From assembly GCA_947044405.1 (NCBI GenBank), contig CAMRHE010000197.1, positions 1,984,001 to 2,048,000 of the forward strand: a stretch of DNA of 64,000 nt, written 5' to 3'. Numbering within the stretch: the stretch's first letter is position 1; each line of letters opens with the position of its first letter. The DNA is from Leptodactylus fallax. Taxonomy: Eukaryota > Chordata > Amphibia > Anura > Leptodactylidae. The notes below the pieces were generated by a model. The model was given only the letters and a program-made list of their open reading frames with translations. It did no database searches and was not told the origin of the DNA. Below are positions 9,456 to 59,642 of this stretch, piece after piece. Made by a program: the position numbers and the translations under genes.

Positions 9456-9462
9456 TACATGC

Positions 9463-14280: not shown

Positions 14281-15910
<1,630 letters not shown>

Positions 15911-25152: not shown

Positions 25153-25155
25153 AAT

Positions 25156-25173
25156 TGGCGTAGTCGGCAGGAT
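25156..25173 (+). other. Primer binding site, tRNA-Ser
   Basis: TGGCGTAGTCGGCAGGAT starts 3 nt after the LTR. It is complementary over 18 nt to the 3' end (CCA included) of vertebrate tRNA-Ser(AGA/TGA) as I remember that sequence. It would prime minus-strand DNA synthesis. Confidence 0.85.
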
Positions 25174-25185
25174 CCGCTTACCAGA

Positions 25186-26211: not shown

Positions 26212-26624
26212 AGTCCCCTGCTGCTGTAGGGCGTGTAGTAGGGGAGACTGACAAGGAGACTATGTGGGGAGAATGCCCTAATGATGACCTGATCGCTGCA
26301 AGTCCTGTCATACAGGTGGAAATGGAGGGTATTCCGGTTACCGGGATGATTGACACGGGTTCCCAAGTAACGACCTTGAGTAGAGACTGTTATGAACGGT
26401 ACTTCCAGCAACATGTGAAATATGATCCCCATACATTCGTACGAGTGGTCGCAGCTAACCAGTTACCAGTTCCGGTCGTGGGAGTGGCCTGGATGAATGT
26501 CCGGGTATGTGGCCAAGATCTAGGTAGGAAAGGCATTGTGGTGGTACAGGAGTCACATGAAGTAAAGGTCCCTGTCATTTTGGGGATGAATGTGTTAAAA
26601 AAAATTCGATCAGATCCTCTTTGA
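26193..26624 (+). CDS. pol: Pol, protease part
   Basis: This is the -1 frame relative to gag. It codes for an aspartic protease with the active-site triad in VTGMIDTGSQVTTLSRDCY (Asp codon at 26352), and the second conserved part VPVILGMNVLKK near 26567-26603. After the 8-A run at 26597-26604 this frame runs into a stop (26622-26624), and the rest of pol lies in the other frame from here on. Such a homopolymer is a likely place for either mutation or a sequencing error. Confidence 0.85.
   Translation, partial: ETAVKLKSPAAVGRVVGETDKETMWGECPNDDLIAASPVIQVEMEGIPVTGMIDTGSQVTTLSRDCYERYFQQHVKYDPHTFVRVVAANQLPVPVVGVAWMNVRVCGQDLGRKGIVVVQESHEVKVPVILGMNVLKKIRSDPL
26202..26211 (+). promoter_or_regulatory. 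Candidate -1 ribosomal frameshift site at gag end
   Basis: GTTAAAC directly precedes the gag TGA. It differs from the classical slippery heptamer TTTAAAC only in its first base and is phased as G TTA AAC in the gag frame. The -1 frame is open from 26193 into the protease. I did not establish a downstream pseudoknot. Confidence 0.5.
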
Positions 26625-28074
26625 AAAGAAAGGTCGCGGTTATTGGAAAGAAACCACCACCCATCGGCCTACTCAAACAGCTTTCCAGCGGCTGATCCGG
26701 ACATGTGGCTTACAGAAAAGTTCGGATGCACAGCGTCCTCTGGCTCGAATTTCAGTTCCTTTGCATACAAAAGTTACACTGCCACCCAGTCGGGAGACAA
26801 TAGTGTCCATGCCCGTAGGCACCTGTCGGAAACTAGAGGGCATAGCTGTGTTGGTAGAACCACTGCAGGCAGCCGAAGGAGGTGTTGATCCGCTAGTGGC
26901 CCGTTCCTTGGCAATAGTTCGCAATGGAAGAGTACCACTTCGATGTGTAAACACTCAGGACCAGAGTGTGGACCTGACCCCAGGGAGGCAGCTGGCTAAC
27001 ATCTATGTGACTCCGGAGGAAGTAAGGAAAGTAACTCCAATGCAGCTGAAGCCGACTGAAAGGGATGAGTGGACCGTAACTGTGTCCATGGGAGAAGATG
27101 AGGAACCCACCTCTGAATGGAATGGCCGTGCAATTCGAGAACAGATGAAGATAGATGCAAGTTCATGTTCTCTGGAATGGGTGCAGAAGGTAGATGAGCT
27201 GTTGTGGGAGAACCGAGCCGCCTTTGCACGGTATGCTGAAGATTTTGGATGTACCACAGGGATCTACCATGAGATTCCCACAGGAGACACCCCTCCAATT
27301 AGAGAGCGCTACCGACAAATTCCTCCACAGTTGTATCAGGAAGTGAAAGAACTGTTAGCTAAGATGCTAAAGGGTGGGATCATCCAAGAAAGCCAGAGTC
27401 CCTGGACGGCTCCTGTGGTGTTAGTAAGAAAAAAAGATGGGTCCATCCGATTTTGCATAGACTATCGGAAGTTAAACGCTTGCACAGTACGAGATTCCTA
27501 TCCCTTGCCACGGATTGAGGAGTCCCTCTCAGCGCTAGGGAGAGCCCGGTACTTCTCCTCACTAGATCTGGCTAGTGGGTATTGGCAGGTGCCGACGGCC
27601 ACAAAAGACAAGGAGAAGACGGCATTCATCTTGCCCATGGGACTATACGAATTTAACCGGATGCCCTTCGGGTTGACAAATGCACCCGGAACGTTTCAGC
27701 GGTTGATGGAGAAATGTCTCGGTGACTTCAACTTTGAGTTCACTCTCATCTACTTGGATGACATTATAGTGTATTCTGCGACCTTTGAAGACCATCTCCA
27801 CCAGTTGGGGCAAGTATTTCGAAGATTGCGGGAACATGGGCTCAAATTGAAACCCAGTAACTGTCGGTTGTTCCAATCTGAAATTGATTACTTGGGTCAC
27901 CGCGTATCAGGAGAAGGGGTGAGACCATCAAGAGACAAGATAGCGGCTGTTCAAGATTGGCCGATACCGACTACCCTGCGAGAAGTGAGGACGTTCCTTG
28001 GAGTAGCCAGTTACTATCGACGGTTTATTAAGGATTTCGCCAAGGTAGCAGCACCACTTAATGCTCTCCTATGA
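26625..28074 (+). pseudogene. pol: Pol, reverse transcriptase part
   Basis: RT motifs appear in order: QSPWTAPVVLVRKKDGSIRF, FCIDYRKLNACTV, YFSSLDLASGYWQV, EFNRMPFGLTNAPGTFQRLM, the catalytic YLDD at 27751-27762, and FLGVASYYRRFIKDFAKVA. A short upstream segment (26625-26760) reads on in the same frame from the A-run. A TGA at 28072-28074 interrupts it before RNase H, which continues in the same frame. TGA in place of CGA would be a C-to-T change at a CpG. Confidence 0.88.
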
Positions 28075-28920
28075 GGCACATCCGGTGGTCCAAAGAACCG
28101 GTCCGTGAAGTGGGGTCCTGAACAGGAACAAGCCTTCCAGGCATTGAAGGATGCACTGACAACAGCCCCAATCTTGGCATATGCTGATTACCACTTGCCG
28201 TTCCAGCTGTATACAGATGCAAGCCTGTATGGTCTTGGAGCAGTGCTTTCCCAGCTTCAGGATGGCCAGGAGAGGGTCATAGCGTACGGCAGCCGGTCTT
28301 TGAGAGATTCTGAAAGAAACCCCGAGAATTATAGTTCATTTAAGTTGGAGCTGTTGGCACTGGTATGGGCCATGACCGAGAAATTCTCTGAATATTTGAC
28401 TGGTGCTGAAGTTTTAGTACTGACTGACAACAACCCACTAGCTCACCTGGAAAATGCCAAGCTCGGGGCATTAGAGCAGAGGTGGATAGCCCGAATGTCT
28501 AAGTTCAATTACCGCATTAAGTATCGGTCCAAGACAGAGAACCAGAATGTTGACGGACTTTCTAGGGTAACTGCCCAGACCCCCACAGAAGACGTGGATC
28601 ATGAGTTGGAGCATGTGGAGGTGCCCGACTTCAGCAGATTTTCACAGGCCTTGGCCGCCGCTAATCAGTTTGAGATGGAGGGGACTGAAATGGCTCCTTT
28701 CTTTGGTCCCTCACGACAGGAATGGGCACAGATACAACAGACCCATGAGGGGCTGGCGCAGATGATCAAGTGTGTTGAGAAAGGCCAGAAGCCCTGTAGA
28801 GAGGAAAGAGAACGACTGACACGTGAAATATTATCTGTTCTGAGTCAGTGGGAAAAGTTGGAGATGAAAAATGGAGTGCTATGCCGAAAGGTCTATTTAC
28901 CTTCTGAGATCGACATTTGA
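28075..28920 (+). pseudogene. pol: Pol, RNase H part
   Basis: In the same frame as RT, this codes for RNase H with LYTDASLYGLGAVLSQ (catalytic Asp), SRSLRDSERNPENYSSFKLE (catalytic Glu region) and VLVLTDNNPLAHLEN (catalytic Asp). KTENQNVDGLSR and a helical linker follow. It stops at TGA 28918-28920. The integrase continues in frame, so this is a second in-frame stop, again TGA where an Arg CGA is plausible. Confidence 0.85.
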
Positions 28921-30351
28921 TACCAAATTGTGGTGCCTAGTGAACTGGCTCGCTCGTTGGCAGTTGAGGCTCATAATAAGAATGGACATTTTGGTCATGA
29001 GAAGACCTTTCGTTGGTTACAGCGACTGATTTACTGCCCTGGTCTTCGTCAAATGGTCGAAGAAGTATGCCGCAGCTGTCGAACTTGTGAGATCCATAAG
29101 GCAATAGAACAGAGAGCTCCCCTGCAAACCATCGTGACCCAGGAACCTTTAGAAATCGTCATGATAGACTATCTAATGGTGGGCCCATCCAATAGTGGAC
29201 ACCAGTACTGCCTCGTAATGGTGGATCACTTCACCAAATTTGCGGTGGTAACCGCCACCAAGGACCAGACAGCTGAGTCAGCAGCTCGTGCTCTGTGCCA
29301 AGATTTCATTCGAGTATATGGGTGCCCCCAACGCATCCACTCTGACCAGGGCGCCTGCTTTGAGGGACACGTAATGAAAGAAGTTCAACGTATCTACGGG
29401 ATAAAGAAGTCGCACACGACTCCATACTACCCTCAGGGAAATGGGGCCTGTGAAAGATTCAACAGAACTCTGCTACAGATGCTGCGGACTCTGGAGGAAG
29501 ACAAGAAGTTACAGTGGCCTCAGTTCTTGTCTGAAATGGTGTGGGCCTATAACAATCAGGTCCACTCTACAACGGGGTACTCTCCTTATACACTTCTCTT
29601 TGGGCGGCCTGGGCGAAGTATAGGAGAATTACAGTTGGATGATGTGGATGGGTTCCCTCCGAGGAATCCAACCTCTTGGGTGCGGGCGCACCGGCAGAGA
29701 CTTGAGACGATCCATCGATTGGTGCGGCAGCGCCTGCAAGAACATCCCCATCCTGATAAGACCCCAGTGCAAGAAGCACCATTGCAACCAGGCGACCTGG
29801 TGCTAGTTCGTGTCAAGAAACCCCAAGGGAAATTGGAAAGCCGATGGGAGGCTTTGCCGTATCGTGTTGTTGGCCGCAAGTATGCGAATGGGCCAGTGTA
29901 CCAGGTCCAGAAAGAAGGAACTGATTGTGTTCGAGTACTTCACCGAAATATGTTGCGCCTGTGTCATTCTGAAGGGACAAATCATGATGGGCCTGCAAAT
30001 GTGAATGAGCTCCCACAGTCAGAGAATGGAGGTGCGGAATGGGCCTCTGACGAGGAGGATGATTGTTGGCCGATCCCTGCTCCTGGGGATGTTCCACCTG
30101 TGACTACTGTATCTCCGGCCTGTGCCCCCTCTGGTGCGGAATCCACTGGTCCTTCTCAGCCCATAGCTGCAACACCCCATAATATACCACCGCTCCTCAG
30201 ACGGACCACTAGGCCAAATGCTGGTATTCCCCCTGTTCGGTATGCGCAGGATGAGTTCGTTTGGCCTGCCATACATCGGTATACTACCACCCTGTGCATA
30301 AAAGTACAACCCTCTGGATATACAGTCATAGGCAGGGACTGCCAATCTTAA
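28921..30351 (+). CDS. pol: Pol, integrase part
   Basis: The HHCC zinc finger is visible as HNKNGHFGHEKTFRWLQR and CRSCRTCEIHK. The D,D,E core has Asp at 29167 (MIDYLMVGP), Asp at 29344 (HSDQGACFEG) and Glu at 29452 (NGACERFNRTL). A C-terminal GPY/F-like domain (RWEALPYRVVGRKYANGPVY) and a Pro/Ser-rich tail follow to TAA 30349-30351. I see no chromodomain. It would insert the cDNA into the genome. It depends on the broken upstream pol for expression. Confidence 0.88.
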   Translation, partial: YQIVVPSELARSLAVEAHNKNGHFGHEKTFRWLQRLIYCPGLRQMVEEVCRSCRTCEIHKAIEQRAPLQTIVTQEPLEIVMIDYLMVGPSNSGHQYCLVMVDHFTKFAVVTATKDQTAESAARALCQDFIRVYGCPQRIHSDQGACFEGHVMKEVQRIYGIKKSHTTPYYPQGNGACERFNRTLLQMLRTLEEDKKLQWPQFLSEMVWAYNNQVHSTTGYSPYTLLFGRPGRSIGELQLDDVDGFPPRNPTSWVRAHRQRLETIHRLVRQRLQEHPHPDKTPVQEAPLQPGDLVLVRVKKPQGKLESRWEALPYRVVGRKYANGPVYQVQKEGTDCVRVLHRNMLRLCHSEGTNHDGPANVNELPQSENGGAEWASDEEDDCWPIPAPGDVPPVTTVSPACAPSGAESTGPSQPIAATPHNIPPLLRRTTRPNAGIPPVRYAQDEFVWPAIHRYTTTLCIKVQPSGYTVIGRDCQS

Positions 30352-30365: not shown

Positions 30366-31359
30366 TGTAAGAGATAGCCAATGTTGTCCTAAGCTTCATT
30401 TGTCTGTATAAACTGTTAATGTTGAATGTATTTCTGTGATTCTGTTCCTTTAAGACAGCAGCCATTGTAATTGTGACATGATGCTGGAGTGAGACCCCCC
30501 CCCCCTTTTATGTCAGCCTGCCTGTTCTGCAGACAAAGTGTGAGCAGAGAAGCAGGAAGTGACGAGACAGAGAGCAGCAGCCATCTTGGCAAGAGAGAAG
30601 ACAGGTGTCTGTGCTGTGTTGAACTGGTGTGGATATTTTTCTGTACAGCTAAGCTGTATCTTGGTCCAGAGACAAACAGAGTGTAAAGAGACGACAGGAC
30701 TAGTGAGTCCATGTGAAAGGAACTGTGCTCAGTGGCTGATCAGTGAGACTGACATTGTGACTGTGTATATGGATACCACAGATAGAGACTCGCAGTGCTG
30801 TTGACGTACTGGACAGTAACTGCATAAATCCCGGCTTACATCCTAGATCAGTGTATGGATTCGGCAGGACTGTCAGTGTGCTGAGTGGAATCTGCTGTTG
30901 GATTACATTGCATTCATTGTGTTTCCCTGTTAAAGAGGACTTCATTTCTCCCAAGATCCTGATAACAGTGAGGAGAGGACGCTTCACTATAAAAGAAAGG
31001 AACGACTTTGGGCCCCACCGCGCGCTTCTACGGACTGTAAGCTGTCCACCTGGACCACTGGGGAAAAAGGGGGGCAAACAAATGTGTGGGGGGGGGCTGT
31101 TAGGGGTATTTTTGAATATATTTTTTATTTTGTTTCCATACTACAAAAGGGGAAAAAAAAAAAAAAAAAATTTTTTCTTAATTTTTTTTGTAATTTTTTT
31201 TTTTTTTTTTTTTATTTTTTTTTTTTTTTTCCTTTTTTTTTTTTCCTTTAACTAGCCTTTATTAACTTATAGTAAATATATATTCTTTTCTTGAACTACC
31301 GCGTGTGCGTTCATTTCTGGTTGTGGAGTCCAAAACACCTGCCTTGCTCTCGGTTCACA
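30366..31359 (+). repeat. 3' LTR (994 bp), with a corrupted segment
   Basis: It matches the 5' LTR closely from 30366 to about 31070 and again from about 31248 to the end. The segment 31075-31247 consists of long G, A and T runs where the 5' LTR has ordinary sequence of about the same length. That looks like a consensus or assembly failure. Confidence 0.9.
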
Positions 31360-31370
31360 CCCCCACTGTA

Positions 31371-31604
31371 TATAAAGTCAAATGAAGCAAGCAAAGTTTA
31401 AATTTTCATTTAGCCCAAATGGAATGAGTGGTTTAAGTCTATAAATCCATTGAGCCTCTTTACGTAAAAGAATAGTGTCAATGTCTCCTCCCCTGATAGT
31501 ATTCTTTACTGTCTCTAAGGCTACAAAGCTAAAAACCAAAGTTTCCCCAGAATGTAAGCTGGCAACATGTCTAGGGATTGATTTATCCTTCTCATGTCCA
31601 ATGT
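31371..31604 (-). pseudogene. Penelope-like element (PLE), C-terminal end
   Basis: On the minus strand this codes for IPRHVASLHSGETLVF, RGGDIDTILLRKEAQWIYRL and PFGLNENLNFACFI with stop at 31378-31380. This is the typical C-terminus of PLE proteins carrying a GIY-YIG endonuclease. The Tc1 element's TA lies right after the stop. The upstream part of the same protein is at 32591-33010, separated by an LTR-like insertion and a ribozyme unit. Confidence 0.8.
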
Positions 31605-32274
31605 TGTTATGGTTGAGTTCCTGGAGCAAATGTAAGCAAAAGCAGAGTCTGGCTGATAACATGGTGCAGTAGAACGAGCTATTTAAATCTAGTACTGACC
31701 TGCGAGATAGACCCAGACCCCAAACACCTTCACTAGTGCCAGGCTCAAGACCAGATGGACTTTGCTGAACAGGAAATAAACACTCCACTTTCTGAAAACA
31801 TAACCGGAACCCACTATTAACTTACTAGGATGATCAGGATCAGGAAGATGGATCAGAAAGGTAATGTCCCAGTAGTAGTTTGTTAAATAAGAGACGTTTG
31901 AGTCAAGAGATAAGTGATATTCTGATAATAAGGTTGTTTTTTTCAAAAGATCACGTCAGGGCTAGATTCAGTATACAAGAAGTATCCGTTAACAAAGTCT
32001 AAGTATCAATATTCCAAGAAATCACATCAGAGTTTGAATCAAAAGACAAAGGTATTTTGGTCACAAGTCAAAGTTCGGTTTCCAGGAGATCAGTCTGAAG
32101 CAGTGATACACAAAGAATCAGATCACACAGCCAAACAAGAAAAGTAATTGCAGGCAGCTTGCTGAGGAGGAAGGAAGTTTAAATATGTATCCTCAGCTGG
32201 TAATTGTACAAGACCAGAGAACTATTGCATTGCAGGAGCTTCTCAGGTCAGCATGGCAACCTTAAAGCAACAGT
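31605..32274 (-). mobile_element. LTR-like insertion inside the PLE
   Basis: On the minus strand it begins TGTTGCTTTAAGG and ends CTCAACCATAACA, LTR-like ends. It shares scattered blocks with 46097-46612 (for example CAGCTGAGGA and TATTTAAA near the start, AGCT(C/T)GTTCTACTGC near the end). It splits the PLE coding region. No convincing TSD was read, so the exact edges are tentative. Confidence 0.55.
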
Positions 32275-32576
32275 ATCACAAGGCATTATGGGAAAAGAAG
32301 CTGGGAAGCTCATGTGCCCTCTGTTGGATGTAACAGATCCTCAATTTGCTTTTGACTCACTGAGTCTTGAGACAGCAAATGGGATTTTAGCCAAGCCAAT
32401 TTCACTTACCTGCATACAGCGCCGTTTCGGGATTTTTGTCCCTCATCAGTGCAGAGCAAAGTGAACTGACTGGCTTTGTGGGAGGCAATGAGTGGCTTAG
32501 GGACGGGAATATCTCTCCTTGAGGAGAGCACCAGTGAAGGGGTGTAGAGTTTTGATTTGCCTTTTGCCCTCTATGT
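32275..32576 (-). mobile_element. 302-bp PLE-derived unit (pLTR type) with 14-bp TSD and hammerhead ribozyme
   Basis: CTTAAAGCAACAGT occurs at 32261-32274 and again at 32577-32590, so this 302-bp unit is a discrete insertion. It contains no coding sequence. On the minus strand it begins ACATAGAGGGCAAAAGGC, contains a hammerhead motif (32410-32454) and ends CATAATGCCTTGTGAT. The unit at 49318-49995 shares sequence and the same 3' end. PLE pseudo-LTRs are known to carry hammerhead ribozymes. Confidence 0.85.
32410..32454 (-). ncRNA. Hammerhead ribozyme (type I, PLE class)
   Basis: On the minus strand the core CTGATGA, a 4-bp stem II (GGGA/TCCC with 6-nt loop) and GAAA are all present. A 5-bp stem III without loop (ACGGC/GCTGT) is followed by the cleavage triplet GTA. 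Stem I pairs CTGCA with TGCAG. The tiny stem III is typical of PLE hammerheads, which are thought to work best as dimers. Self-cleavage is predicted, not shown. Confidence 0.82.
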
Positions 32577-32590
32577 CTTAAAGCAACAGT

Positions 32591-33010
32591 GGCACTGATA
32601 CTCTTGACAGTCATTCAGGTGTTGAAGAATACGTCTCCTAAATTCTCTTTGTTTTTCCTACATAATATAAGCCGCAAGTGCAGATACATGCATAGAGGAC
32701 TGCAGAGTTCCGACAATTAGCAAAATCTTGAATTATGAAGATTGTTTTAGTTACTTTTACCCATAGGCATGCTTTGCACTAGCCACATCGAAACATTCCC
32801 ATACTTCTGGTTGCTAACCAACTAGATTTCTTTGAGATACTAAAATGGCTGTGTACTAGTCTTTCTCCTATATTTTTCCCTCTTGTATATGTTATAGAGG
32901 GATAAGGAGTTAAGGGTAACCTCTGTCTTTTTGTCTATAAGCATCTCTAGTAGAACAATTCCTGCAAACTCACAGTAACTGTCCTTTGGGGATTACCCTG
33001 CAAAGTGGGG
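32591..33010 (-). pseudogene. PLE linker and GIY-YIG endonuclease fragment
   Basis: On the minus strand the frame pieces read HSHFSISKKSSWLATRSMGMF with RCG and CKACLW (a conserved cysteine region), then CRNSAVLYACICTCGLYYVG, which holds the GIY-YIG signature GLYYVGKTK. REFRRR and HLNDCQ follow after a one-base shift. It is the N-terminal neighbour of the fragment at 31371-31604. The RT domain was not found upstream. Confidence 0.78.
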
Positions 33011-35822: not shown

Positions 35823-38125
35823 CTGAAAGCCTTTCTTGAAAATAAAAATATTACAAGGCCTATTGGCTAATCAACAAGACCTAGACTTTAGAAAATGCCA
35901 ATGCCAGTTATATATTCATAGCAATAGAGCCAGTGCATTCCTTGCCAAGAAAATAAGACAATCACAACCCAAATCTCGCATTTCTCATCTCCTGGACAAC
36001 CGTGGCTGTAAAATAGTTGACCCTAGAATTATTGCGGAACAGTTCTGAATCTATTATGAATCTCTGTAAAACTTGATAGTTCAGAGGTTTATCAGCCTTC
36101 CATCCCAGAGAGTGATAATTTTTTGACACGTGTCCCCCTCCCCAGACTTTCTCCTGATAACAACAATTGTCTGCTCCGTTCTCCATAACTGAGATTTATA
36201 AAGCCGTCTCCTCACTAAAACCCTTCAAATCACCGGGACCTGACGGCTTCTTCGGGAGTTGCTATAAAAAATTTGTGTCTCTTCTTGCGCTCCACTTGCT
36301 ACGGGTATTTGCCAAAGCTACAGAGGACTGTGGATTCCAGAAGAAATGTTATCTACCACTATTGTTACCTTACCTAAACCAGGAAAACCTCCAATTAATC
36401 TGGCCAATTTCAGAACGCTATCAATGTTGAAGACCAACATAAAAATACAGTATATGCTATGATATTAGCAGAGCGCCTCCTTCAGTTGCTGACCAAACCG
36501 GTAAAACCCAACCAGGTGGGGTTTATTGCTGGTAGACAAGCCCCAGATGATACCTGATGGTTCATTAACCTGATTTAATGGGCAGAACGCACTTGAACGC
36601 CTTCTCTTATCCTGGCTCTGGACACGGAGAAGGTGTTCAACAGGGTCCACTGGGGATATCTTCACCGTCTACTGGAAAAGTTTGGGATTCAGGGCTCCTT
36701 CAAGGCATCCATCTTAGCATTATACTCACGCCCCTCTGCTAGAGTGTTATCTTCTGGGTTCTTATCAGACCCGTTTTATATACTTAATGGTACTCGTCAA
36801 GGATGCCCTTTATCGCCAATTATTTTTGCTCCTGTAATGGAACCACTGGCGGAATCTATTCGACTAAACCCGAACGTAGTTGGTATTGCTGTGGGCGACT
36901 TGCAACATAAAATCGGTTTGTATGCTGATGATGTGATTAACTTACTCTCACGTCCTCTCTCCTCCCTACAAGCGACTGTCACTACGTTGAAGGCCTTTAG
37001 TAGGGTATCTTACTATAAGATGAACCTGTCTAAAGCCCAAGTACTTACTATCGATATACCTCCGTCATCTAGAACCCAGTTGATGGGTGCTTTCCCTTTT
37101 AATTGGAACCTAACCAGTATTTCTTATCTGGGAATATCCCTAACAGCTCCAAGCTTGGCCCTTTTTACCCATAATTATTTGCCTCTACTTGCGAAGGTCT
37201 CTACCTTACTCGCTCACTATTCTAAACCTATTGATTACCTGGGCGAGCAAGATAGCGATAGTTAAAATGATGGTATTTCCTATTATACTATACAGTTTCT
37301 GTACTGTGGTCATACCTGTACCTAACACTTATTCTGCAAAGGATGATCAAGGATGATCTTGTCCTCATGATTAATATGCCCCTGACTTATGTAAATGTAT
37401 TTCTACAGCAAGTTAATTTAACTCACTGGTCTAATAACGGTTTGCATACCATCAGACAACTATTCGACAGCCCCCATCTTAATACACTGTTTAAGGAATT
37501 CAATTTCTTCGGTAGGGACTTCTATAAATATTTGCAAATACACCATATTTTACAATCCTATGACATTTCCCTACCTTATTTCCCTAAAGTAGTCCTCAAG
37601 CAGCTGCAAGCCTGACTCTCTTCCAATGGAGCATTGTCTGTATTCTATAAGACCCTTACTCAGCCATCTACACTAGTAAAACCTTCTTATACGATGGGAG
37701 AAAGATTCATCCTGACAAATATCCCTATCTGAGTGGTACACAGACACAGGCTTTGTAAAAACCATCTTGAAGGGTGCTGCTCATTGGGAAACGGCCTGCA
37801 AGATTTCCCTAAGGTGGTACTGTACCCCTTCCAAAATTACTCACATTGACCCCACCTACCCGAACCTTTGTTGAAGTTGTTGGCAATATAGATAATCCTA
37901 TCCACATGTGGTGGGAATGCCCCACAATCCTAGCCTTTTGGTCAGTTGTTTTCCAATTTTGTACCTTTGCTATTTTCAAAAAATATTACACATGGAAGGG
38001 AAATTAGAATTTTAGGTTATGATGTTCACCCATGGATTTATTCTGATTGCCATATTTGGAGTTGGGAAGTTGTACATAGCTATTGTAGTGCCCAATGGAA
38101 AATGTTTTAAGTCTTTTATAACAGT
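35823..38125 (+). pseudogene. Tx1/L1-like LINE ORF2, C-terminal half
   Basis: In shifting plus frames, this shows SRISHLLDNRGCKIVDPR (about 35970), LKPFKSPGPDGFFGSCYKKF (36220-36280), and LALDTEKVFNRVHWGYL across 36610-36670. ILNGTRQGCPLSPIIF (36783-36830) and the catalytic box YADDVINLL (36920-36946) follow, then VSYYKMNLSKAQ. C-terminal pieces include ISLRWYCTPSKITHIDPTYP (near 37810-37860). The motif set fits L1/Tx1 rather than CR1/L2. Several stops and shifts show an old 5'-truncated copy. No 3' tail or TSD was read. Confidence 0.8.
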
Positions 38126-39102: not shown

Positions 39103-39404
39103 AGCAGCCAATCAACCAGCTTTAAGCCCACAGACATCACAGACATGCCTAGTATGGGCCTGGCTGTGATTGGCCAGGTGGGACATGTGATCCCTCGATA
39201 TAAGAGACAGGGTCACAGGTCCCGTCGCCATTCCAGCTAGTTAGGCTAAGTAGGGAGAAGCTGCAGCTGAAGATAGGGACAGTCAGAGCCTTAGCTAAAT
39301 TTAATAATTGCCCTTTTCAGGGCAGTGCAGCTAGGTAGGGAGAGGAGCCTGATAATATGAGGGACAGTTAGCCTAGAAATAATAATTGCACTTTTCAGGG
39401 CAGT

Positions 39405-40290
39405 GACAGTAAACTGTGTGTATGCACATTCTGTCTCCTAGCACAGTAGCAATAACTGTGTGTGTGTACCCATACTGTCTCCTAGCGCAGTAACAATAAC
39501 TGCATGTGTACCCATACTGTACCTAGCACTGTAACAATAACTGTGTGTTTACCCATACCATCTCCTAGTGCAGTAACAATAACTGCGTGTGTGTACCCAT
39601 ACCGTCTCCTAGTGCAGTAACAATAACTGCGTGTGTACCTATACCGTCTCCTAGCGCATTAACAATAGCTGCGTGTGTCCCCATATTGTCTCCTAGCGCA
39701 GTAACAATAACTGCGTTTGTATACACATACCATCTCCTAGCGCAGTAACAATAACTGCATGTGTACCCATGCTGTCTCCTTGCACAGTAACAATAACTGT
39801 GTGTGTACCCATACCGTCTCCTAGAGCAGTAACAATAACTGTGTGTACCCATACTGTCTCCTAGCGCAGTAACAATAACTGCATGTGTACCCATACCGTC
39901 TCCTAGCGCAGTGAAAATAACTGTGTGTATACCCATACCATCTCCTAGCGCAGTAACAATAACTGCGTGTGTACCCATACTGTCTCCTAGCATAATAACA
40001 ATAACTGTGTGTGTACCCTTATCATCTCCTAGCGCAGTAACAATAACTGTGTGTACCCATACCGTCTCCTAGCGCAGTGAAAATAACTGTGTGTATACCC
40101 ATACCGTCTCCTAGCGCAGTAACAATAACTGTGTGTGTACCCATATCGTCTCCTAGCACAGTAACAATAACTGCGTGTGTACCCATACTGTCTCCTAGCA
40201 CAGTAACAATAACTGTGTGTGTGTACCCATACTGTCTCCTAGCGCAGTAACAATAACTGCGTGTGTACCTATAACGTCTCCTAGCGCAGA
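39405..40290. repeat. Minisatellite, about 40-bp unit, about 21 copies
   Basis: The unit is near GCAGTAACAATAACTGCGTG plus TGTACCCATACCGTCTCCTAGC. Unit length varies between about 38 and 44 through GT-runs. It stops exactly at the hAT coding remnant. A repetitive open frame on the minus strand is a by-product of the near-42-bp period. Confidence 0.95.
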
Positions 40291-43330: not shown

Positions 43331-46096
43331 GTTGCCAGGGTGGTGTACTTGTACATTTGTGGTGCATCCAAATGATTCATCATCAGTGCTATCACTGGCC
43401 CAGATCTATGCAGACAAAGATTGTTGGGTTACGTTCCACACACTACCGTTATGAGAGGGAACTGGTATCATGGGGATCCTGTGATTGAGATCAGCAAGCC
43501 AAGATGTCAAAAATTTCACCTTCCTTCTCAAGAACTACAACAACCCTGAGGCTACTTGAGGTACTGCCACCCAAATTTTTATTGTTACTTGCAGGAGTGG
43601 ATAGCGTTACAGGAGTATAAATGTTTATTCCCCCTTTACCGTATACCCTGTCCTGTCTTTTTCCAGACATTTTACTGCACTGCAACATGATACTTCATTG
43701 CAGGAATAAAAATATATTTTACTGTAAATATGCCCTAAGTGCATATTAATAACTGTCAGTGTAAGAAATATATGTGCACTTTTAAAAACACTGGGGCAGA
43801 TTTATCAATCAATGATATTGCGGATCACATTTGGTGCAAGGCCCTGGCATGTGCCACAAGCATATGACACAAGCCCCATTCTGTGTCTCGATCAGCACAT
43901 TGTGTGAGTTTTCTGTGTGAGCTATAATGGAAATCTATTCCAGTTTCTAAATGTTGTAGTTTTCCATCCTGGCACTGGGACATGTGACTGATTTATGAAG
44001 AGACCGGAGCCTCTTCATATATCACTGTCTAAATTATATAAATCTAATGAATCTGTTCTCCAGAGTCTTCTCCTATAATTATGTAGTAGTACAACAATGT
44101 TTTTTTTCCACTATGACTGCGCTGATACTGCTGGATGCAGTAGCTGAGTTCGTCTCTCTGTGCATAATTTTATACAGTAAACTGCATCTGACATCATCAC
44201 TGTGACCTCTCCACTCGTCAGTAATGATTGGCCAATAGGCGGTCAGAAGCCCGCCTAGGTCACACAGAATGTGTGAACCTTCTTGTTTATGCTCTCCTAC
44301 ATCGTATTACGCATGGTGGTGGTCATTTTACAAGTTTGCCTAAGACAAATCAGATTTGCTCATCTCTAGTAGGGACAACATATACTGTCATAGGGACCTG
44401 TGTCATCTGTTTTTCACAGAGCCAAAGACATGGTCATACAAATACTTTGGAAAAAAAGTTCAGTTTTTCATGGATGTGAAAAATTAATCAACTATGAACA
44501 GCACACAATCCTGATTATTTTAGGATTGTTATTTGTGTGCTGTCTATGATTAACATGGACATTATACACTTCTTCAAAATGCAAGGGGGTGAATAAGTTT
44601 AAAATAAAGAATAAATTGAGTTGGACTAGAAGTGTAGTTGCTATCTTCTAAGTATCATGTGACAGGTATGGTGCATGTTTGCAGTTGAAAGGGATAAGAC
44701 ATGGGTGCTAAAGGTTTATGTAGAGGGTAGTCTTTGAGATATCCATAGTGGCACAGTAGGGCAGACTGTAAACTGACAGTCACTTTGGAGCAGCCTGACT
44801 TCTGCATAGATCAAGATCCCTGATCCCAGTTTAGGCACTAAAACCATTTGTACAACTGTAACTTTAATGATGTTGTGGGGAAACCATCTTAAATATCTGT
44901 CTGCATTAATCACCCAACAAAGGTCGGTGACAGACTAGCAGACTATAAAACACACCACAATCACTGTAAACACAGAAGTTGGTTCCCATTACAGAAGCAC
45001 AAGCTTTCTTTCTTTTCCAGCAAGCTTATGCTATTTTTACATCTGCATTAGAAGCTCTATCATGAGCCTTTGTCATAGATTTTGTCATGGTTGATAGAAA
45101 AGATAGCCCAGCATGCAGCACTCACCTTCAGTTAAAATGACAGATCCCAGAGAGTACCCATTATAAGTCAGTAGGGTTCATGGAGAGCTGCTGTTGTCTG
45201 TCATGTTATGAATTCGACACAACATTACAGTTTCATTTGTAACAGAAACCATGACACAGATGTGAAATAGAGCCTTAAAGGGGGTTGATGACTTACTGTA
45301 ACTCACTCCAGTGATTGAGACCAGCTGATTGGTGTGAGTACTGGGTGTCATGACAAAAGCTTCTGGTCCTATGAAAGTAGGATGAGATGGATGAGAGTAA
45401 TGGACTTGAGTAATGGTATGGTGAACATATCCTTAGGCAACCCCTTTAAACAGAGAGTTCCAGTTGCTGATTGACATTGCGGCCTGTGTGATGTGCTTTC
45501 CATTTACATTCTAATGAATTTACTAATTCCAAGGGGCTATTCCTTTTACCAACATTTTTTTACCAACATTTTTAGGACTTTTTTTTTCCTGGATAACAAC
45601 TGAACTACAAAAAAAAAAAAAAAGCAAAACAAGTCTTACCAGAATCTTTGGCCCGGTATGTTGTATATCTAGGGTCTCACTTGATGACAGCACAAGTAAT
45701 AAGGCAAACACAAAACATAAAAAGAAAAAGGGCTTTACTCAAGTTGAGGCTACAAGCGAGTAACTGTTACAAATGGTCTTATGAGACTCAAACAACTTGG
45801 TGGTTGCAAGAGGTTGAAACTGGTTTGGTGGTTAAAAATAGTTTCTCTATGAGGGTAAAGTTCTTGGCACAAATCACACACACAGTGTACAGAAACAATA
45901 CACAGTCTCTAAGTAGAACATAGTCCTTGAACAAGATAACATCCCTGTGCAAAACTTTAATCCAAAGGGTTATTTCCCACAGCAACACTTGGAATCCATT
46001 AGGCACATGTCCACACATTTGTAATTCACAAGTGTGTCAGTTCACTAGCAATCCACAGGAAGGAGATCCACAGCATGGCAGTAATACCCAAGGTAC
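43331..46096. other. Unrecognised sequence
   Basis: No supported gene. A small imperfect hairpin (AACAGCACACAATCCTGATT against a mirrored GTGTGCTG) lies at about 44500-44550. The block 45700-46090 is A/C-rich on the plus strand and may be part of the LTR-type sequence that follows, but I cannot show it. Confidence 0.4.
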
Positions 46097-46612
46097 TGTT
46101 ACGGAATTGCCAAAGGAGCAATTTTCAAAATACAGAAACTGGCTGCTACCAGAGAGCAGTAGAACAAGCTACCTAAATCTCACACAGCTTTGGGAGATAG
46201 GACTAAGGCTACCTATATGTCTTCACCAGAGCACGGCACGAAACCAGTTGGACTTGAACTGAATTTTGACACAGTAATAGATGATCTACCAAACTCAAAT
46301 CAAACCAGAACCCACAGCAATGCTCACAAGGCAGGTCAAACAAGGAGAGTGGAATCAAAGGAATAAACATTTCCAAGCCGAGGTCAAGAGTTAACAGTCA
46401 AAGCTAAAATCAGCAATCAAGAGATTATCCAGAAGAAATCAGAGCACAGGAGCCTCACTAGTAAGTAACAACTAATAGCAGACACATGGGAAGTTGTGAA
46501 CAGACTTTAAATATCCCTCCTCAGCTGCTGATTAGTTCATCATCCCAGAACTCTGATTAGCGGCACAGCGAAAGCTTTACATATTGGCATGATAACCTCA
46601 AAGTACAGGTCT
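46097..46612 (-). mobile_element. LTR-like sequence related to 31605-32274
   Basis: On the minus strand it begins TGTACTTTGAGG and ends GGCAATTCCGTAACA. It shares CAGCTGAGGAGGGATATTTA-type and AGCTTGTTCTACTGC-type blocks with the insertion in the PLE. The flanking pentamers agree at only three of five positions. Probably a decayed solo LTR; confidence is limited. Confidence 0.5.
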
Positions 46613-47068
46613 CAAACACAAGGCTTGCAGGCCAAATCTGTCCCGCGAGCTTGTTTTGTGGTCTGTGACCCAGGGCCGCGTCTGCAATGGAAAAAGGGGT
46701 TCATATATTGTGTGGGGTCCAAAAAAAGGGACATAAACTGCGTTGGCATCAAAAAATAGAGCCATATTATGTGTTGGGGGGCTAGTAAGCCATGTTACGT
46801 AACATAAAGTTAGTCATAAAACATTTATTTTAATATCCAGTCCAGATTTCCTGTGATGGGTTTTCTGCTCCACCACGTATTATGCATACTGGCCATCTTC
46901 TTTGAGAAGACTACTCCCACATAAGACCACGTTTCCATGTAATTTTCCTTACCTTTACATAGTTGATTTTACTGCCTTTAAAAGTAAAAGCTCCAATATC
47001 AGGAAAGCCCAAGGTCTTAACAGTTTTGACAGCCATAAGAAGACTACCCAAAAAAAGTTAAAGTAAAG
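46613..47068. other. Unrecognised sequence
   Basis: Nothing identifiable between the LTR-like block and the Tc1 copy. Confidence 0.4.
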
Positions 47069-47070
47069 TA

Positions 47071-48670
47071 CAGTGGGCAAAAAAAGTATTTAGTCAGCCA
47101 CCAATTGTGCAAGTTCTCCCACTTAAAAAGATAAGAGAGGCCTGTAATTGTCATCATAGGTAGACCTCAACTATGAGAGACAAAATGAGAAAATATATCT
47201 AGAAAATCACATTGTCTTATTTTTAAAGAGTTTATTAGCAAATTATGGTGGAAAATAAGTATTTGGTCACCTACAAACAAGCAAGATTTCTGGCTCTCAC
47301 AGACCTGTAACTTCTTCTTTAAGAGGTTCCTCTGTCCTCCACTCATTACCTGTAGTAATGGCTCCTGTTTGACATTGTTATCAGTATAAAAGACACCTGT
47401 CCACAACCTCAAACAGTCACACTCCAAACTCCACTATGGTGAAGACCAAAGAGCTGTGGAAGGACACCAGAAACAAAATAGTAGACCTGCACCAGGCTGG
47501 GAAGACTGAATCTGCAATAGGCAAGCAGCTTGGTGTGAAGAAATCAACTGTGGGAGCAATAATTAGAAAATGGAAGACATACAAGACCACTGATAATCTC
47601 CCTCGATCAGGGGCTCCACACAAGATCTCACCCCGTGGGGTCAAAATGATCACAAGAATGGTGAGCAAAAATCCCAGAACCACACAGGGGGACCTAGTGA
47701 ATGACCTGCAGAAAGCTGGGACTAATGTAACAAAGGCTACCGTCAGTAACACAGTACACCGCCAGGGACTCAGATCCTGCAGTGCCAGACGTGTCCTCCT
47801 GCTTAAGCCAGTACATATCTGGGGCTGTCTGAAGTTTGCAAGAGAGCATTTGGATGTTCCAGAAGAGTATTGGGAGAATGTCATATGGTCAGATGACACC
47901 AAAGTAGAACTGTTTGGTAGAAACACAACTCGTCATGTTTGGAGGAGAGTGAATGCTGAGTTGCATCCAAAGAACAACATACCTACTGTGAAACATGGGG
48001 GTGGCAACATCATGCTTTGAGGCTGTTTCTCTGCAAAGGGACCAGGACGACTGATCCGTGTACATGAAAGAATGAATGGGGCCATGTATCGTGAGATTTT
48101 GAGTGCAAACCTCCTTCCATCAGCAAGGGCATTGAAGATGAAACGTGGCTGGGTCTTTCAGCATGACAATGATCCCAAGGACACCGCCAGGGCAACGAAG
48201 GAGTGGCTTCTTAAGAAGCATTTCAAGGTCCTGTAGTGGCCTAGCCAGTCTCCAGATCTCAAACCAATAGAAAACCTTTGGAGGAAGTTGAAAGTCCATG
48301 TTGCCCAGCAACAGCCCCAAAACATCACTGCTCTAGAGGAGATCTGCATGGAGGAATGGGCCAACATACCAGCAACAGTGTGTGCCAACCTTGTGAAGAC
48401 TTATAGAAAACGTTTTACCTCGGTCATTGCCAACAAAGGATATACAACAAAGTATTGATACGAACTTTTGTTATTGACCAAATACTTATTTTCCACCATA
48501 ATTTGCAAATAAATTCTTTAAAAATCAGACAATGTGATTTTCTGGATTTATTTTCTCATTTTGTCTCTCATAGTTGAGGTCTACCTATGATGTCAATTAC
48601 AGGCCTCTCATCTTTTTAAGTGGGAGAACTTCCACAATTGGTGGCTGACTAAATACTTTTTCCCCCACTG
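47071..48670 (+). mobile_element. Tc1-family transposon (family A, copy 2), complete ends
   Basis: This 1600-bp element is bounded by TA (47069-47070, 48671-48672). It starts CAGTGGGCAAAAAAAGTATT and ends ACTTTTTCCCCCACTG, with terminal repeats of about 200 bp. It is the reference for the split copy at 22609-31368. Confidence 0.93.
47436..48458 (+). pseudogene. Tc1 transposase with two nonsense codons
   Basis: The frame is 340 codons long from [16 protein letters not shown] to GYTTKY, without any frameshift. TGA at 48018-48020 and TAG at 48234-48236 stop it. Copy 1 has Trp and Glu at these places. The first Asp ([13 protein letters not shown]), second Asp ([11 protein letters not shown]) and Glu (PIENLW) remain. 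It keeps the five residues that copy 1 lacks in the second DNA-binding region. Confidence 0.9.
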
Positions 48671-49304: not shown

Positions 49305-49450
49305 TACTACTAGTTTATCACAAGGCATTATGGGAAAGGAGCTGGGGAGCTCATGCGCCCTCTGTTGGATGTAACAGATCCTCAATTTGCTTTTGACTCA
49401 CCGAGCCTTGAGACAGCAAAAGGGATTTCAGCCAAGCCAATTTCACTTAT

Positions 49451-49495
49451 CTGCATACAGCGCTGTTTCAGGATTGTTGTCCCTCATCAGTACAG
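49451..49495 (-). ncRNA. Hammerhead ribozyme motif B
   Basis: On the minus strand: stem I CTGTA/TGCAG (one G-U), core CTGATGA, stem II GGGA/TCCT (outer G-U), GAAA, stem III ACAGC/GCTGT (self-complementary, no loop), cleavage triplet GTA. Confidence 0.8.
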
Positions 49496-49596
49496 AGCAA
49501 AGTGAACTGGCTGGCTTTGTGGGAGGCAATGAGTGGGTTAGGGACAAGAATCTCTCACATTGAGGAGAGCACCAAAGCCAGCCAGTTCACTTTGCT

Positions 49597-49641
49597 CTGT
49601 ACTGATGAGGGACAACAATCCTGAAACAGCGCTGTATGCAG
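49597..49641 (+). ncRNA. Hammerhead ribozyme motif C
   Basis: Identical to motif B but on the plus strand, in the right arm of the inverted repeat. The predicted cut follows A49636. Confidence 0.8.
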
Positions 49642-49907
49642 ATAAGTGAAATTGGCTTGGCTGAAATCCCTTTTGCTGTCTCAAGGCTCGGTGAGTCAAA
49701 AGCAAATTGAGGATCTGTTACATCCAACAGAGGGCGCATGAGCTCCCCAGCTCCTTTCCCATAATGCCTTGTGATATGTAGATGCTAAGTAGAGGGCAAA
49801 AGGCAATTCAATCTCTACACACCTTCACTGGTGCTCTCCTCAATGTGAGAGATTCTTGTCCCTAACCCACTCATTGCCTCCCACAAAGCCAGCCAGTTCA
49901 CTTTGCT

Positions 49908-49952
49908 CTGTACTGATGAGGGACAACAATCCTGAAACAGCGCTGTATGCAG
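49908..49952 (+). ncRNA. Hammerhead ribozyme motif D
   Basis: Same sequence as motif C, 311 bp downstream in direct orientation. The predicted cut follows A49947. Cuts at C and D would release a 311-nt RNA. Confidence 0.8.
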
Positions 49953-50008
49953 ATAAGTGAAATTGGCTTGGCTGAAATCCCTTTTGCTGTTTCAATACTA
50001 CTAGTTTA

Positions 50009-51652: not shown

Positions 51653-52470
51653 ACATAGTCACATAGTTACATAGTAGATGAGGTTGGATGAAGACATCAG
51701 TCCATCAAGTCCAACCTATAACCCTACAGTCCCCTACAGTGTTGATCCAGAGGAAGGCAAAAAAAACCATGAGGCTTATGCCAATTGCCCCATTTCAGGG
51801 GAAAAAAATTCCTTCCCGACTCCAATCTGGCAATCAGTATAAAACCCTGGATCAATGTGCCCTTAAAATCTAAAACTCATAAACCGTAATACTGTTCTGT
51901 TCGAGAAAGTCATCCAGGCCCTCTTTGAACTTGTTCAATGAATCCACCATCACCACTTCCTGAGGCAGAGAGTTCCATAGCCTCGCTGTTCTTACTATAA
52001 AGAATACCCTTCTATGTTGCTAGTGAAACTTTCTCTCCTTCAGATGTAGGGGATGTCCCCTTGTCACTGTCACTGGCCTAGGAGTAAAAAGATCATTAGA
52101 AAGTTCTTTGTGCTAGCCCTTCATGTATTTGTACATAGATCTCCCCATAGACGTCTTTTTTCTAAACTGAATAACCCCAAGTTTGTTAATCTATCACTGT
52201 ACTCCAATCCACCCATTCCCCTAATAATTTGGGTCATCCTTCTCTGCACTCTCTCTAGTTCGATTATGTCTTTTTTGTATACCGGGGCCCAAAATTGTGC
52301 GCAATAGTCTAAGTGTGGCCGTACCAGTGATTTGTATAGAGGCATAACTATGTTCTTGTCATGAGAATCTATACCTCTTTTGATGCATTCCATAATTTTT
52401 TTTGCCTTGGCAGCAGTTGCCTGGCATTGGTCACTAAAGGTAAGTTTACTGTCTACCAAGGTTTCTTCAG
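51653..52470 (-). mobile_element. CR1-clade LINE, 5'-truncated
   Basis: On the minus strand it codes for the end of CR1 RT: VDSKLTFSDQCQATAAKAKK, LYKSLVRPHLDYCAQFWAPV, LERVQRRMTQIIRGMGG and LFSLEKRRLWGDL (52121-52459). The remaining coding tail and 3' UTR follow, with the typical frog CR1 phrase reading GGACTTGATGGACTGATGTC on the minus strand. It ends in the (ACATAGTT)-like short repeat CATAGTCACATAGTTACATA near 51653. It lacks the endonuclease and most of RT. Confidence 0.85.
52121..52459 (-). pseudogene. CR1 reverse transcriptase C-terminal fragment
   Basis: About 112 codons are open, from the strand after the catalytic box to the thumb-like region. The catalytic ADD box is upstream of the truncation and missing. 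Confidence 0.82.
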
Positions 52471-52592
52471 CTTTAAAGTATACTTTGCAGAAAGAACAAA
52501 GATGCTGTCAACTCTACCCAAGTCTGTTTTAATGCATACTTGTTTTCCCTATAAAATAACAATGCTGGAGCATATTTTTTTTAGAATTCAGC

Positions 52593-54094: not shown

Positions 54095-54665
54095 CAGTCA
54101 TGGCCAAAAGTTTTGAGAATGACACAAATATTATATTTTCACATGATCTGCTGCCCTCTGGTTTTTATGTGTGTTTGTCAGATGTTTTTATCACATACAG
54201 AAATATAATTGCATTCATATTATGAGTAACAGAAGCTTATATTGACAGTTAGAATGAGTTAATGCAGCAAGTCAATATTTGCAGTGTTGACCCTTCTTCT
54301 TCAGGACCTCTGCAATTCTCCCTGGCATGCTCTCAATCAACTTCTGGACCAAATCCTGACTGATAGCAGTCCATTCTTGCAGAATCAATGCTTTAATTTT
54401 GTCTGAATTTGTTGGTTTTTGTTTGTCCACCCGTCTCTTGATGATTGACCACAAGTTCTCAATGGGATTAAGATCTGGGGAGTTTCCAGGCCATGGACCC
54501 AAAATCTCTATGTTTTGTTCCCTGAGCCATTTAGTTATCACCTTTGCTTTATGGCAAGGTGCTCCATCATGCTGGAAAAGGCATTGTTGAGCGCCAAACT
54601 GCTCTTGGACGGTTGGGAGAAGTTGCTCTTGGAGGACATTCTGGTACCATTCTTTATTCATGTAT
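54095..54665 (-). mobile_element. Tc1-family fragment (family D), 5' half of transposase missing
   Basis: It starts CAGTCATGGCCAAAAGTTTT after TA (54093-54094). The transposase end on the minus strand follows (54272-54676) with CLFQHDGAPCHKAKVITKWL (second Asp), NSPDLNPIENLWSIIK (Glu) and a C-terminus ending KKKGQHCKY. The sequence changes abruptly near 54665, where the N-terminal half and the second terminal repeat are lost. Confidence 0.85.
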
Positions 54666-54676
54666 GTGTATACCAT
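54272..54676 (-). pseudogene. Tc1 transposase C-terminal half
   Basis: This is about 130 codons without an internal stop, carrying the second Asp (QHDGAPCH) and the Glu (PIENLW). The DNA-binding domains and first Asp are absent, so it cannot be active. The first few codons of this frame come from the neighbouring sequence. Confidence 0.85.
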
Positions 54677-56314
54677 CTGGTATGTATCTATGTTGTGTTA
54701 TTACTGTTTTTACTATGTGTATGGTTTTAAATGGCGTCCATCAGTTACTAAGACTATGACGCATGCTCTTTTTGCACCTGGATTAGTGATGAGGAGATTG
54801 GTGGTTGCTGGGGTGACTGAGCGAGGGAGGTGCCTTTTTATGATGCACCCGGACTCAGTCATGCCATCAGCCTGTGGAAGCTCTGTGTGCGTGAAACGGC
54901 CTGTCACTGTTTGCTCTGGTATCGGCTAAGCCTGTTTTCACTCACTTGCAATAAAGTCTGATGTTTGGAGAATAGTGCCGCTCCTGTTTTTCTCTTTCTT
55001 GTGAATATTGTGAAATCCATGTTTTGCCCTTGTCCATAATTTCTGCTCCATGAGTCGATGGTGGCATGCACCTTTTCCCAGACTGACATATCTAAGGAAA
55101 GGTCCACATTCTCCAATACATACATAAAGCAGGGACAGCTTTCCTAGAGAAAAAATGGTGGCTAGGTATCTTCCATCAAGGTCAAGTACATGCCATCAGT
55201 TGGCAAAACGCAGTAGAAAATGCTAAGCAGCTTGGTCAGGTATAAGTTAAATTGCAGAACCACTGGATAAATGGACGTATATTGCTGTTTCCTGGACACA
55301 CATTCCCTTATGGACTGACATTGGTGTGGTAGAGGAGGAGAAGGAGAAACAGTTTGTGATGATGATTATAATGACAAACATGTGCTAGGTGTAGATGTGG
55401 CCTGCTTACAAGGAGGCAGTAGGAGAGTCTTTCTCATTTCCTCTGCCAGTGCCACTGCCAAGTCTATTTTGCCAAATAACATGTCTATAGGATGTCTATA
55501 TATGAGGCCTTTTCAAATGAGTATGTAGAGATGATGTTCCTACATTTGTTCCTGCATGGCCACGTCTAAGTTTATGCTTGCAGATCTTTCACATTGCCAT
55601 GGAATTATTCCCACATTAATAATAATAATACAGTAATAATAATAATAATAATTATAATAGCGTCAGTCAGCTTTAAATAACTACTTTTTTTTAGATTAGC
55701 ACAGGCTGTGATACTGTATATACTGTATGAGTAGCAACAAAAAAAAAAATGCCTAAGAAAAGAATATTTTTTCAGATGACCACACTCAGTCACACTGTGT
55801 ATTGGGTGAAGAGAGCAGAAAAAACCCCTGATATAACAGTTTTTTTTAGATTATTGAATGAAAGAGTTAACTGTCCTTTGTTTGTGTATTAGTGTAGCAA
55901 TGCTGCTGTTAGGCACCAGCACAGATATTTCTATCACTAATCTGCCTTTAATTGATTCAACTAAACTTTCTCTAACTCTGTTGCTTGCTATTGTAAGCTT
56001 TTCAGAACTGAGTGCTCTATATGATGCAGTGAGATAAATCCCAGATCCTTCTCTATGCCCTCCATGATGATAATTGCAGTACCTTGTATATTGTACAGTA
56101 AGGTGTCCACCTTCTACAACTGTCTATTGATTGAAAGCCTGTCACACTGACGCACAAGATATGTGTCTCTTCTGTATTTTTCCTACGCAATATATGTGGC
56201 AGCAGCCAGTTTGTAAGAGACTAATTTGCATTTGTTTGTTTTCTTTAAAAACCGGACAATTCAGAATACTCGGGTCGATCCCTGTTCGTAACAAATCGGT
56301 TTGCTCATCTCTAT

Positions 56315-58207: not shown

Positions 58208-59642
58208 ATTTCTATCTTTATATAGCTCAATCAATCATAAAACCAGTCACAGGTGAAATGAATTGATTATTTTTGTGAATATGGCATTTTTCAAAGAATG
58301 GGATGACTGTCAGTGGCAGTGACAGTAAGTACACTGTAGCAGCCATAGTTGCCACAGGGCCTGCAACCTTACAGGGCCCGTGACCTTGGTGGGCCCCCGC
58401 TGTTTTTTTTTTTTTCATTAATAGGCCGTTACCTGCTGAAGTAATCCCAGGTAATGGGCTCTATTTACTAACTGATCCCCATTCCTGCTCACTACTGCCT
58501 CCGCTTCCCCTTCTGCCCTCCAGGGGGCACCATGCATCCCATATCACGTCATTGGGGACCCCAGGAGGGAGGAAGGGGAAGCGGAAGTGGCCATGAGCAG
58601 GAGTGGAGATGGTAATTAAGGCCACGAACCCGCGGCAATAGTATTTGTTTAGCGAATCCCTACAAATACTGCTACTATAATACTCGGGGGTCTCTTCAGA
58701 CCCCAGAGTATAATGATTGACGGCCCAGAGGAGGTGAGCAGACTAAAAAAAACAGTGTTACTTACCACTCCTGGACTCCGGTGTGACTCTCCCCTGTGTT
58801 CATGCCTCTGTAGTGATGTCATAGACGTCATGTGGGTTATACTCAACTCTCCTGCGCTCCAGCACAACTCCCTACTGTTTTCGGCCCTCTTGAATGATGC
58901 CGGCTTAACCCACGTCTGTGACGTCATTGAAGAGGGCTTATAACAGCAGGGAGTCGTGCTGGAGCACAGGAGAGGTGAGTATCATTGGTTTTTATTTTTT
59001 TCACCTTCCCGGGCCTCCGATCATTATACTCTGGGGTCTGAAATATAATATACTGTATAAAAACAGTTTGCAACGAACACTGTTGCGACATAATACCATG
59101 TAGAGAGGCCACTATGGACATAATACTGTGTGGAAAGGCCGCTATGGGACATTATACTGTGTGGAAGGGCCGCTATGGGACATTATTTTGGCAGTGCTGG
59201 GTATCAAAATAAAAGTTAGGGGGAGATCCTGTCTGATGTAAGGGGGGGTACACTCAATACCAGAAATAGATTATAAATGGAGACAATATGGCAGACCTGG
59301 GATACGGGACATATGGATTCAGGGTGCCCATATCTTATCGAAGGTCAGGCAGGTGTTAGATAAGGTGGCATTAATCTTTTCATGGAGCATGACTGTGTCA
59401 ATTCGACGAATCACGTCCGTCAACACAAGTAAGGGTTTCCTCCAATTAAAGGCAATATGAATCCGGGCAGACATTATGATATACTGTAATCATTTGAATT
59501 GAGCATATTTAAGGTTATCAGGCTTAAGGTTAAGGAGAAAAATAGGGGCCGATAATGGGATTGGCCATCCAAAAAGTTGCTTTGCCCTGTTTACAATTGT
59601 GTATTATAATTACTCTTACTTTGCAGGAACTATGTCTTTAGT
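58207..59642. other. Unnamed repeat blocks
   Basis: 58430-58620 is G/C-richer sequence with inverted pieces (CTTCCCCTTCTGCCCTCCAG against GAGGAAGGGGAAG). 58680-59040 contains GGGGTCTCTTCAGACCCC and two arms reading GAGGGCTTATAACAGCAGGG and, inverted, CTACTGTTTTCGGCCCTC. These look like a non-autonomous element, but I could not define ends. Confidence 0.45.

Follow-up and report, generated by a model that had tools for sequence, protein, structure and literature searches.

What kind of element is a short, non-coding block of DNA that carries several hammerhead ribozymes and is bounded by its own target site duplication (TSD), and whose enzymes placed it in a frog genome? The question is raised by a stretch of 64,000 nucleotides from Leptodactylus fallax (contig CAMRHE010000197.1), all of which was analysed and is called the window here. 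Protein-free hammerhead retroelements were described from the axolotl by Cervera and de la Pena (2020), with Penelope-like elements (PLEs) as a strong candidate helper; for the helper enzyme of animal retrozymes, the accessible text of this literature names PLEs only as strong or likely candidates. Since ORF-less hammerhead retrozymes of the axolotl and of invertebrates, and the proposal that PLEs mobilise them, are thus known already, the original prediction went too far in presenting a PLE-dependent, retrozyme-like amphibian element as new in kind. Our reading, which we hold at a probability of about 0.6, is that the frog sequence is a hammerhead retroelement, non-autonomous and without protein, that belongs with the metazoan non-LTR retrozymes and was integrated by PLE machinery.

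The insertion is 678 bp long (49318-49995), non-coding, and has an exact 13-bp repeat at both flanks. It holds one antisense copy and about 1.4 (1.36) sense copies of a 311-nt unit, arranged as follows.

49305..49317, no strand: left TSD, TACTACTAGTTTA, whose terminal TA may belong to the element
49318..49574, minus strand: antisense unit copy (left arm), whose 3′ end lies at the left edge (unit offset 202-204)
49573..49574, no strand: CA common to both arms at the head-to-head junction, a 2-nt microhomology where the arms overlap
49573..49883, plus strand: full sense unit of 311 nt, the reference for unit offsets
49776..49789, plus strand: 14-nt spacer, ATGTAGATGCTAAG, between the unit 3′ end and the start common with the second copy described below
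49884..49995, plus strand: partial sense unit of 112 nt, stopping at unit offset 112, the right edge
49996..50008, no strand: right TSD, TACTACTAGTTTA, abutting the insertion edge

A 13-bp TSD had been predicted to fix the edges of the insertion, and TACTACTAGTTTA does abut both of them. Among 100 dinucleotide shuffles made from the window, none gave two matches to it with at most one mismatch, and only 1 in 200,000 random edge pairs (with ±3 nt of slack) had a 13-mer in common. Because the unit itself continues with TA at the left edge, the TSD is properly 11-13 bp; when this TA is counted as element, the left arm starts at 49316. Compared with the tandem unit, the right, sense part (49573-49995, 311 + 112 nt, offsets 0 to 423) agrees at 422 of 423 positions; the left arm, which runs from offset 256 to offset 202 of the next turn, agrees with it at all 257 of its positions. 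Across 112 nt the identity between the two sense copies is 99%, and the longest complementary pair between the arms spans 204 nt at 100%, with 53 nt between the arms. Both arms have their 3′ sides outward and their 5′ sides meeting in the middle of the insert. The arrangement foreseen for the locus, one inverted and two tandem units, is therefore correct in its order and orientation, while the second sense unit proves to be partial.

Near-perfect inverted repeats can be artefacts, and the block might have arisen as an assembly artefact or a segmental inverted duplication. An exact TSD nevertheless bounds the whole of it, the arms are unequal (257 versus 423 nt) and flanking sequence past the TSD is not duplicated within the window, all of which leaves an artefactual origin very improbable.

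The unit has a GC content of 47.3%, and in the tandem unit the longest stop-free run is only 65 codons antisense and 55 codons sense, in keeping with the claim of an insertion without protein. What it does contain is hammerheads. A structural descriptor for type I hammerheads, composed after the motif had been seen, finds four sites in the window, 49602(+), 49913(+), 49490(-) and 32449(-), and none in 500 dinucleotide shuffles searched on both strands; three of the four lie in the insertion, the number first reported for it. The cut positions below are placed by the cleavage rule that we take to apply.

49433..49519, minus strand: type I hammerhead, antisense copy, predicted cut between 49456 and 49455
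49573..49659, plus strand: type I hammerhead, first sense copy, predicted cut between 49636 and 49637
49884..49970, plus strand: type I hammerhead, second sense copy, predicted cut between 49947 and 49948
32392..32478, minus strand: type I hammerhead, second copy, with C replacing U at the helix II base

All four run unbroken over the predicted cut site. Between the two loci the hammerheads show 6 differences over 85 nt; four of these fall in the 18 named pairs, every one of the four keeps its pairing, and all 18 named pairs are standard at both loci. At the helix II base, G-U takes the place of G-C in all three hammerheads of the 678-bp copy. A stem I internal loop and a 6-nt loop 2 are present.

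Rfam gave no match in the whole window at the gathering threshold, and no hammerhead was among the matches of a scan of 901 bases at E<=5. That scan returned MIR2863 (E 2.3e-12) and mir-6012 (E 0.0063), each under its gathering score; we reject both miRNA matches, for which the long hairpin accounts. In both short scans the best covariance-model match was Hammerhead_HH9 (RF02275), with 22.8 bits (E 6.4e-4) for 49583-49659 and 28.6 bits (E 9.2e-6) for 32392-32468, below the gathering score of 52. HH9 is a conserved amniote motif.

Helix III is weak: three pairs are possible by sequence and they are unformed in the monomer fold. As a monomer the hammerhead sequence of the 678-bp copy folds freely at -26.2 kcal/mol versus -22.0 kcal/mol for the hammerhead fold, and that of the second copy at -30.6 versus -27.4 kcal/mol. 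The motif ACAGCGCUGU is self-complementary, and two strands folded without constraint form a double hammerhead whose palindromic helix III is 10 bp long (-52.1 kcal/mol for the 678-bp copy, -57.3 kcal/mol for the second). Among 300 shuffles for each copy, 2 and 1, respectively, had a dimer energy as low; the gain of the dimer over two monomers is unexceptional, being matched by 48 of 300 and 23 of 300. For axolotl retrozymes a requirement for the hammerhead dimer has been reported, in the published text available to us.

Comparison of the window with itself uncovered a second TSD-flanked copy, absent from the original prediction; translation of the minus strand shows two PLE-like stretches of reading frame on either side of it.

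32261..32274, no strand: TSD of the second copy, one side, CTTAAAGCAACAGT, exact over 14 bp
32275..32576, minus strand: second copy, a 302-bp monomer running from unit offset 217 round to 203
32577..32590, no strand: TSD of the second copy, other side, CTTAAAGCAACAGT
32610..32996, minus strand: PLE-like reading frame, first part, with frameshifts and stops, assigned by motifs only
31381..31620, minus strand: PLE-like reading frame, C-terminal part, beyond an interruption of about 1 kb, assigned by motifs only

These are the two loci with the unit in the 64-kb window. Depending on the aligned piece, the second copy is 90.5-93.2% identical to the 678-bp copy over 205-260 nt. Its TSD, 14 (13-14) bp long, differs in sequence from that of the 678-bp copy. 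A TSD that was itself a piece of the repeat had been named beforehand as the sign of a mere truncated PLE; since the two loci carry different TSDs, of 13 and 14 bp, it is distinct from the repeat, and its being a repeat component is ruled out. The arms within the insertion are 99-100% identical against about 91-93% between loci, so the three units arrived together, in agreement with the single insertion event that had been assumed. The 3′ ends agree within 2 nt (offset 202-204 in the left arm of the 678-bp copy, 203-204 in the second copy), and the right end of the 678-bp copy lies at another unit position, offset 112. The spacer ATGTAGATGCTAAG is missing from the second copy and has the length of that copy's TSD; it may belong to a circle of 311 nt or be the relic of a TSD. 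Exact-pattern scans of viral and of prokaryote DNA gave no matches, an absence that means little there.

Could a LINE have moved the RNA, with the inverted arm a product of ordinary twin priming? TSDs of this length are in the LINE range, and twin priming typically leaves an inverted 5′ part joined through microhomology. The window has LINE-like ORFs, and the recurrent 3′ end is compatible with such an origin. Against it, neither a poly(A) nor a simple-repeat tail is found at either edge of either copy (two loci), and we consider a LINE origin unlikely.

In its features the unit resembles the metazoan non-LTR retrozymes, as far as the available text of PMC7229834 describes Rtz_331 and Rtz_353 of the axolotl: a type I hammerhead with a weak helix III and a palindromic tetraloop, in an ORF-less tandem unit of about 300 nt with a GC content below 50% and an amphibian host. 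Units of this kind measure about 170-400 nt (here 311 nt) and their TSDs, if present, exceed 4 bp (here 13 (11-13) and 14 (13-14) bp). The group is also marked by a tertiary contact of loop 1 with loop 2, by plentiful unit-length RNA in linear and circular form and by many genomic copies. Unlike the axolotl elements, the present ones are from a frog, not a salamander, and are short, dispersed, TSD-flanked copies, one of them inverted head to head; the word ‘inverted’ does not occur in the main text of PMC7229834. The plant LTR retrozymes differ in having a type III hammerhead and a 4-bp TSD, whereas here the hammerhead is type I with an open stem I, and the TSDs are 13-14 bp.

The layout has its counterpart among the PLEs. 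According to the accessible text of PMC3846280, a typical Penelope insert has two direct pseudo-LTRs (pLTRs) with an inverted one adjacent head to head, a TSD (8-10 bp in the examples) and optionally a tail on one inverted pLTR, so that the inverted-plus-direct arrangement, first thought unusual, is the typical one for Penelope. In the 678-bp copy the 3′ side of the unit faces outward at both edges, which is the layout of such an insert without the ORF. Like Pen2a_Av in that paper, it combines head-to-head inverted and direct repeats with a short TSD and an extra tail at one inverted end; unlike Pen2a_Av, there is no RT or GIY-YIG ORF between the direct repeats, and the tail is about 91 nt as against 31 bp, this extra length at the left edge also exceeding the usual 30-40 bp of Penelope. 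Only the 678-bp copy has the direct-plus-inverted layout with a TSD; the second copy is a plain monomer.

Initiation can be compared with the Anolis PLE Poseidon_Ac which, in the part of PMC11167929 available, cuts and extends both target strands and starts reverse transcription internally in the RNA, at a site that lacks homology with the target. The frog unit is similar in having an ATG at helix II of the hammerhead and a putative RNA-internal start of reverse transcription 3′ of the hammerhead. It departs from the coding Poseidon_Ac in the position of that start, which is mainly 111-118 nt into the ORF in the lizard, while here the ends lie roughly 80 and 171 nt 3′ of the ATG.

Such likenesses are also what would be seen if there were no separate retrozyme family and the unit were the pLTR of a frog PLE that is autonomous, the two insertions being its ORF-less products (solo or tandem pLTRs). 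In layout and TSDs they match Penelope; both solo pLTRs and foreign sequence bounded by pLTRs, with TSDs, have been reported from Adineta (PMC3846280, accessible text); and the ATG at the start of helix II is placed as in Poseidon_Ac (PMC11167929, in the part available). The frame of this ATG, on the other hand, stops after 14 codons in both copies, and the tandem junction of the 678-bp copy passes directly from one unit to another, the end of an ORF being absent there. In the frog hammerhead three pairs of helix III and the stem I internal loop are possible, whereas PLE hammerheads are described, in the text consulted, as minimal, without helix III or loop-loop contacts.

The neighbourhood of the second copy bears on the same point. 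The motifs in 32996-32610 and 31620-31381 are ones that we take to be PLE-like, and this apparent PLE-like ORF near the second copy counts towards a pLTR. Searches of the pieces against Pfam, NCBIfam, PDB and protein sequences lent the identity no support; stray matches were PHD finger protein 19 (E 0.92-1) and one unrelated entry (E 0.076). The two stretches read as one frame split by about 1 kb, with the second copy inside the split. That this copy is the plain 3′ end of the adjacent PLE-like ORF was considered and rejected, because the frame appears, by these motifs, to resume at 31620; the copy is probably not the neighbouring frame's own 3′ end. One of the two unit copies in the window is thus near PLE-like coding sequence, the frame apparently resuming past the block of about 1 kb. 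An RT or GIY-YIG ORF was found inside neither TSD-flanked insert, and at neither of the two loci is a unit copy attached to a PLE ORF; as no such joined copy was seen, the label ‘PLE pseudo-LTR unit’ in the original prediction is unproven. On balance, a pLTR of an autonomous PLE is possible though doubtful.

One flank of the second copy is made by a diverged dispersed repeat, 31621-32260 (-), with a relative at 46088-46632 (-) at 63-65%. This relative stops short of the insertion site and matches one side only, so the joined empty site of the second copy lacks independent support.

On the preferred reading, a retrozyme integrated by PLE machinery, the 311-nt unit would be transcribed as a multimer, in which two hammerheads may pair through the palindromic helix III and cut as a dimer; the fold and the literature suggest that the monomers may then circularise. 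Since all four hammerheads continue over the cut and the sense arm is longer than the unit, the templates would be uncleaved multimers or re-ligated circles; the arm of 423 nt needs a template exceeding one unit. These would be reverse-transcribed at a staggered cut in the target by an RT and an endonuclease that a Penelope-like element supplies in trans, maybe from both target ends, and in the 678-bp copy two cDNAs would have met head to head at the 2-nt microhomology. It is from the insert layout only that we infer a PLE as the helper.

More tentatively, and with real doubt, the 678-bp copy may be the fossil of an event in which a PLE reverse-transcribed a ribozyme circle of 311 nt, with priming from both strands of the target, its arms of 1.36 and 0.83 turns joined head to head, while the second copy ended 14 nt before a full turn. 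The two ends are equally compatible with twin priming by PLE or LINE enzymes, in which priming occurs on a single strand and a 5′ inversion follows; on that view the recurrent end is the 3′ end, and offset 112 marks a position inside the element. The inverted layout might instead come from self-priming on an antisense template, which the available text of PMC3846280 favours for head-to-head junctions with palindromes in Adineta Penelope. Here the junction shares only 2 nt, 53 nt lie between the 204-nt arms, and a palindrome looked for at the junction itself was not found; self-priming is accordingly a questionable source of this layout. If priming from both strands did occur on a circle, the copy would provide direct evidence, in sequence, for the mobilisation of retrozyme circRNA by Penelope machinery.

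What the locus adds is a hammerhead element that lacks an ORF yet has a Penelope-like arrangement flanked by a TSD, for which no description was found in the portions of the literature examined. Short TSD-flanked copies with a Penelope-type layout make the helper question testable, and retrozymes and PLEs can be compared in any frog genome for 3′ ends, TSD lengths and inversion frequency. An ORF-less arm that runs in tandem from unit to unit bears on the circularity of the template.

The window holds other elements. A Ty3/Gypsy element has an LTR pair at 24394-25152 and 30600-31359 (91.6% over 760 bp, a repeat that may be longer since the query began at 30600) and long ORFs at 25069-30351 (+), the family name coming from reading and from the domains of matches. 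The best match of the Gypsy ORF is 52% identical, and in the best 21 of 184 protein matches all organism-named proteins (13 of 13) are from frogs, fish and others coming after; by these matches the host is amphibian-like. We take 14812-15294 (+), 22796-23977 (-), 47373-48020 (+) and 54272-54697 (-) to be Tc1/mariner-like transposase ORFs or remnants, and 6802-11509 (+), 36597-37265 (+), 52121-52507 (-) and 372-3036 (-) to be LINE-like and Gypsy-like reverse transcriptase remnants. Minisatellites lie at 11998-13462 (about 29/58 bp), 39400-40289 (42/208 bp) and 59087-59183 (31 bp); the consensus units of the first and the last have TAATACTGTGTGG in common.
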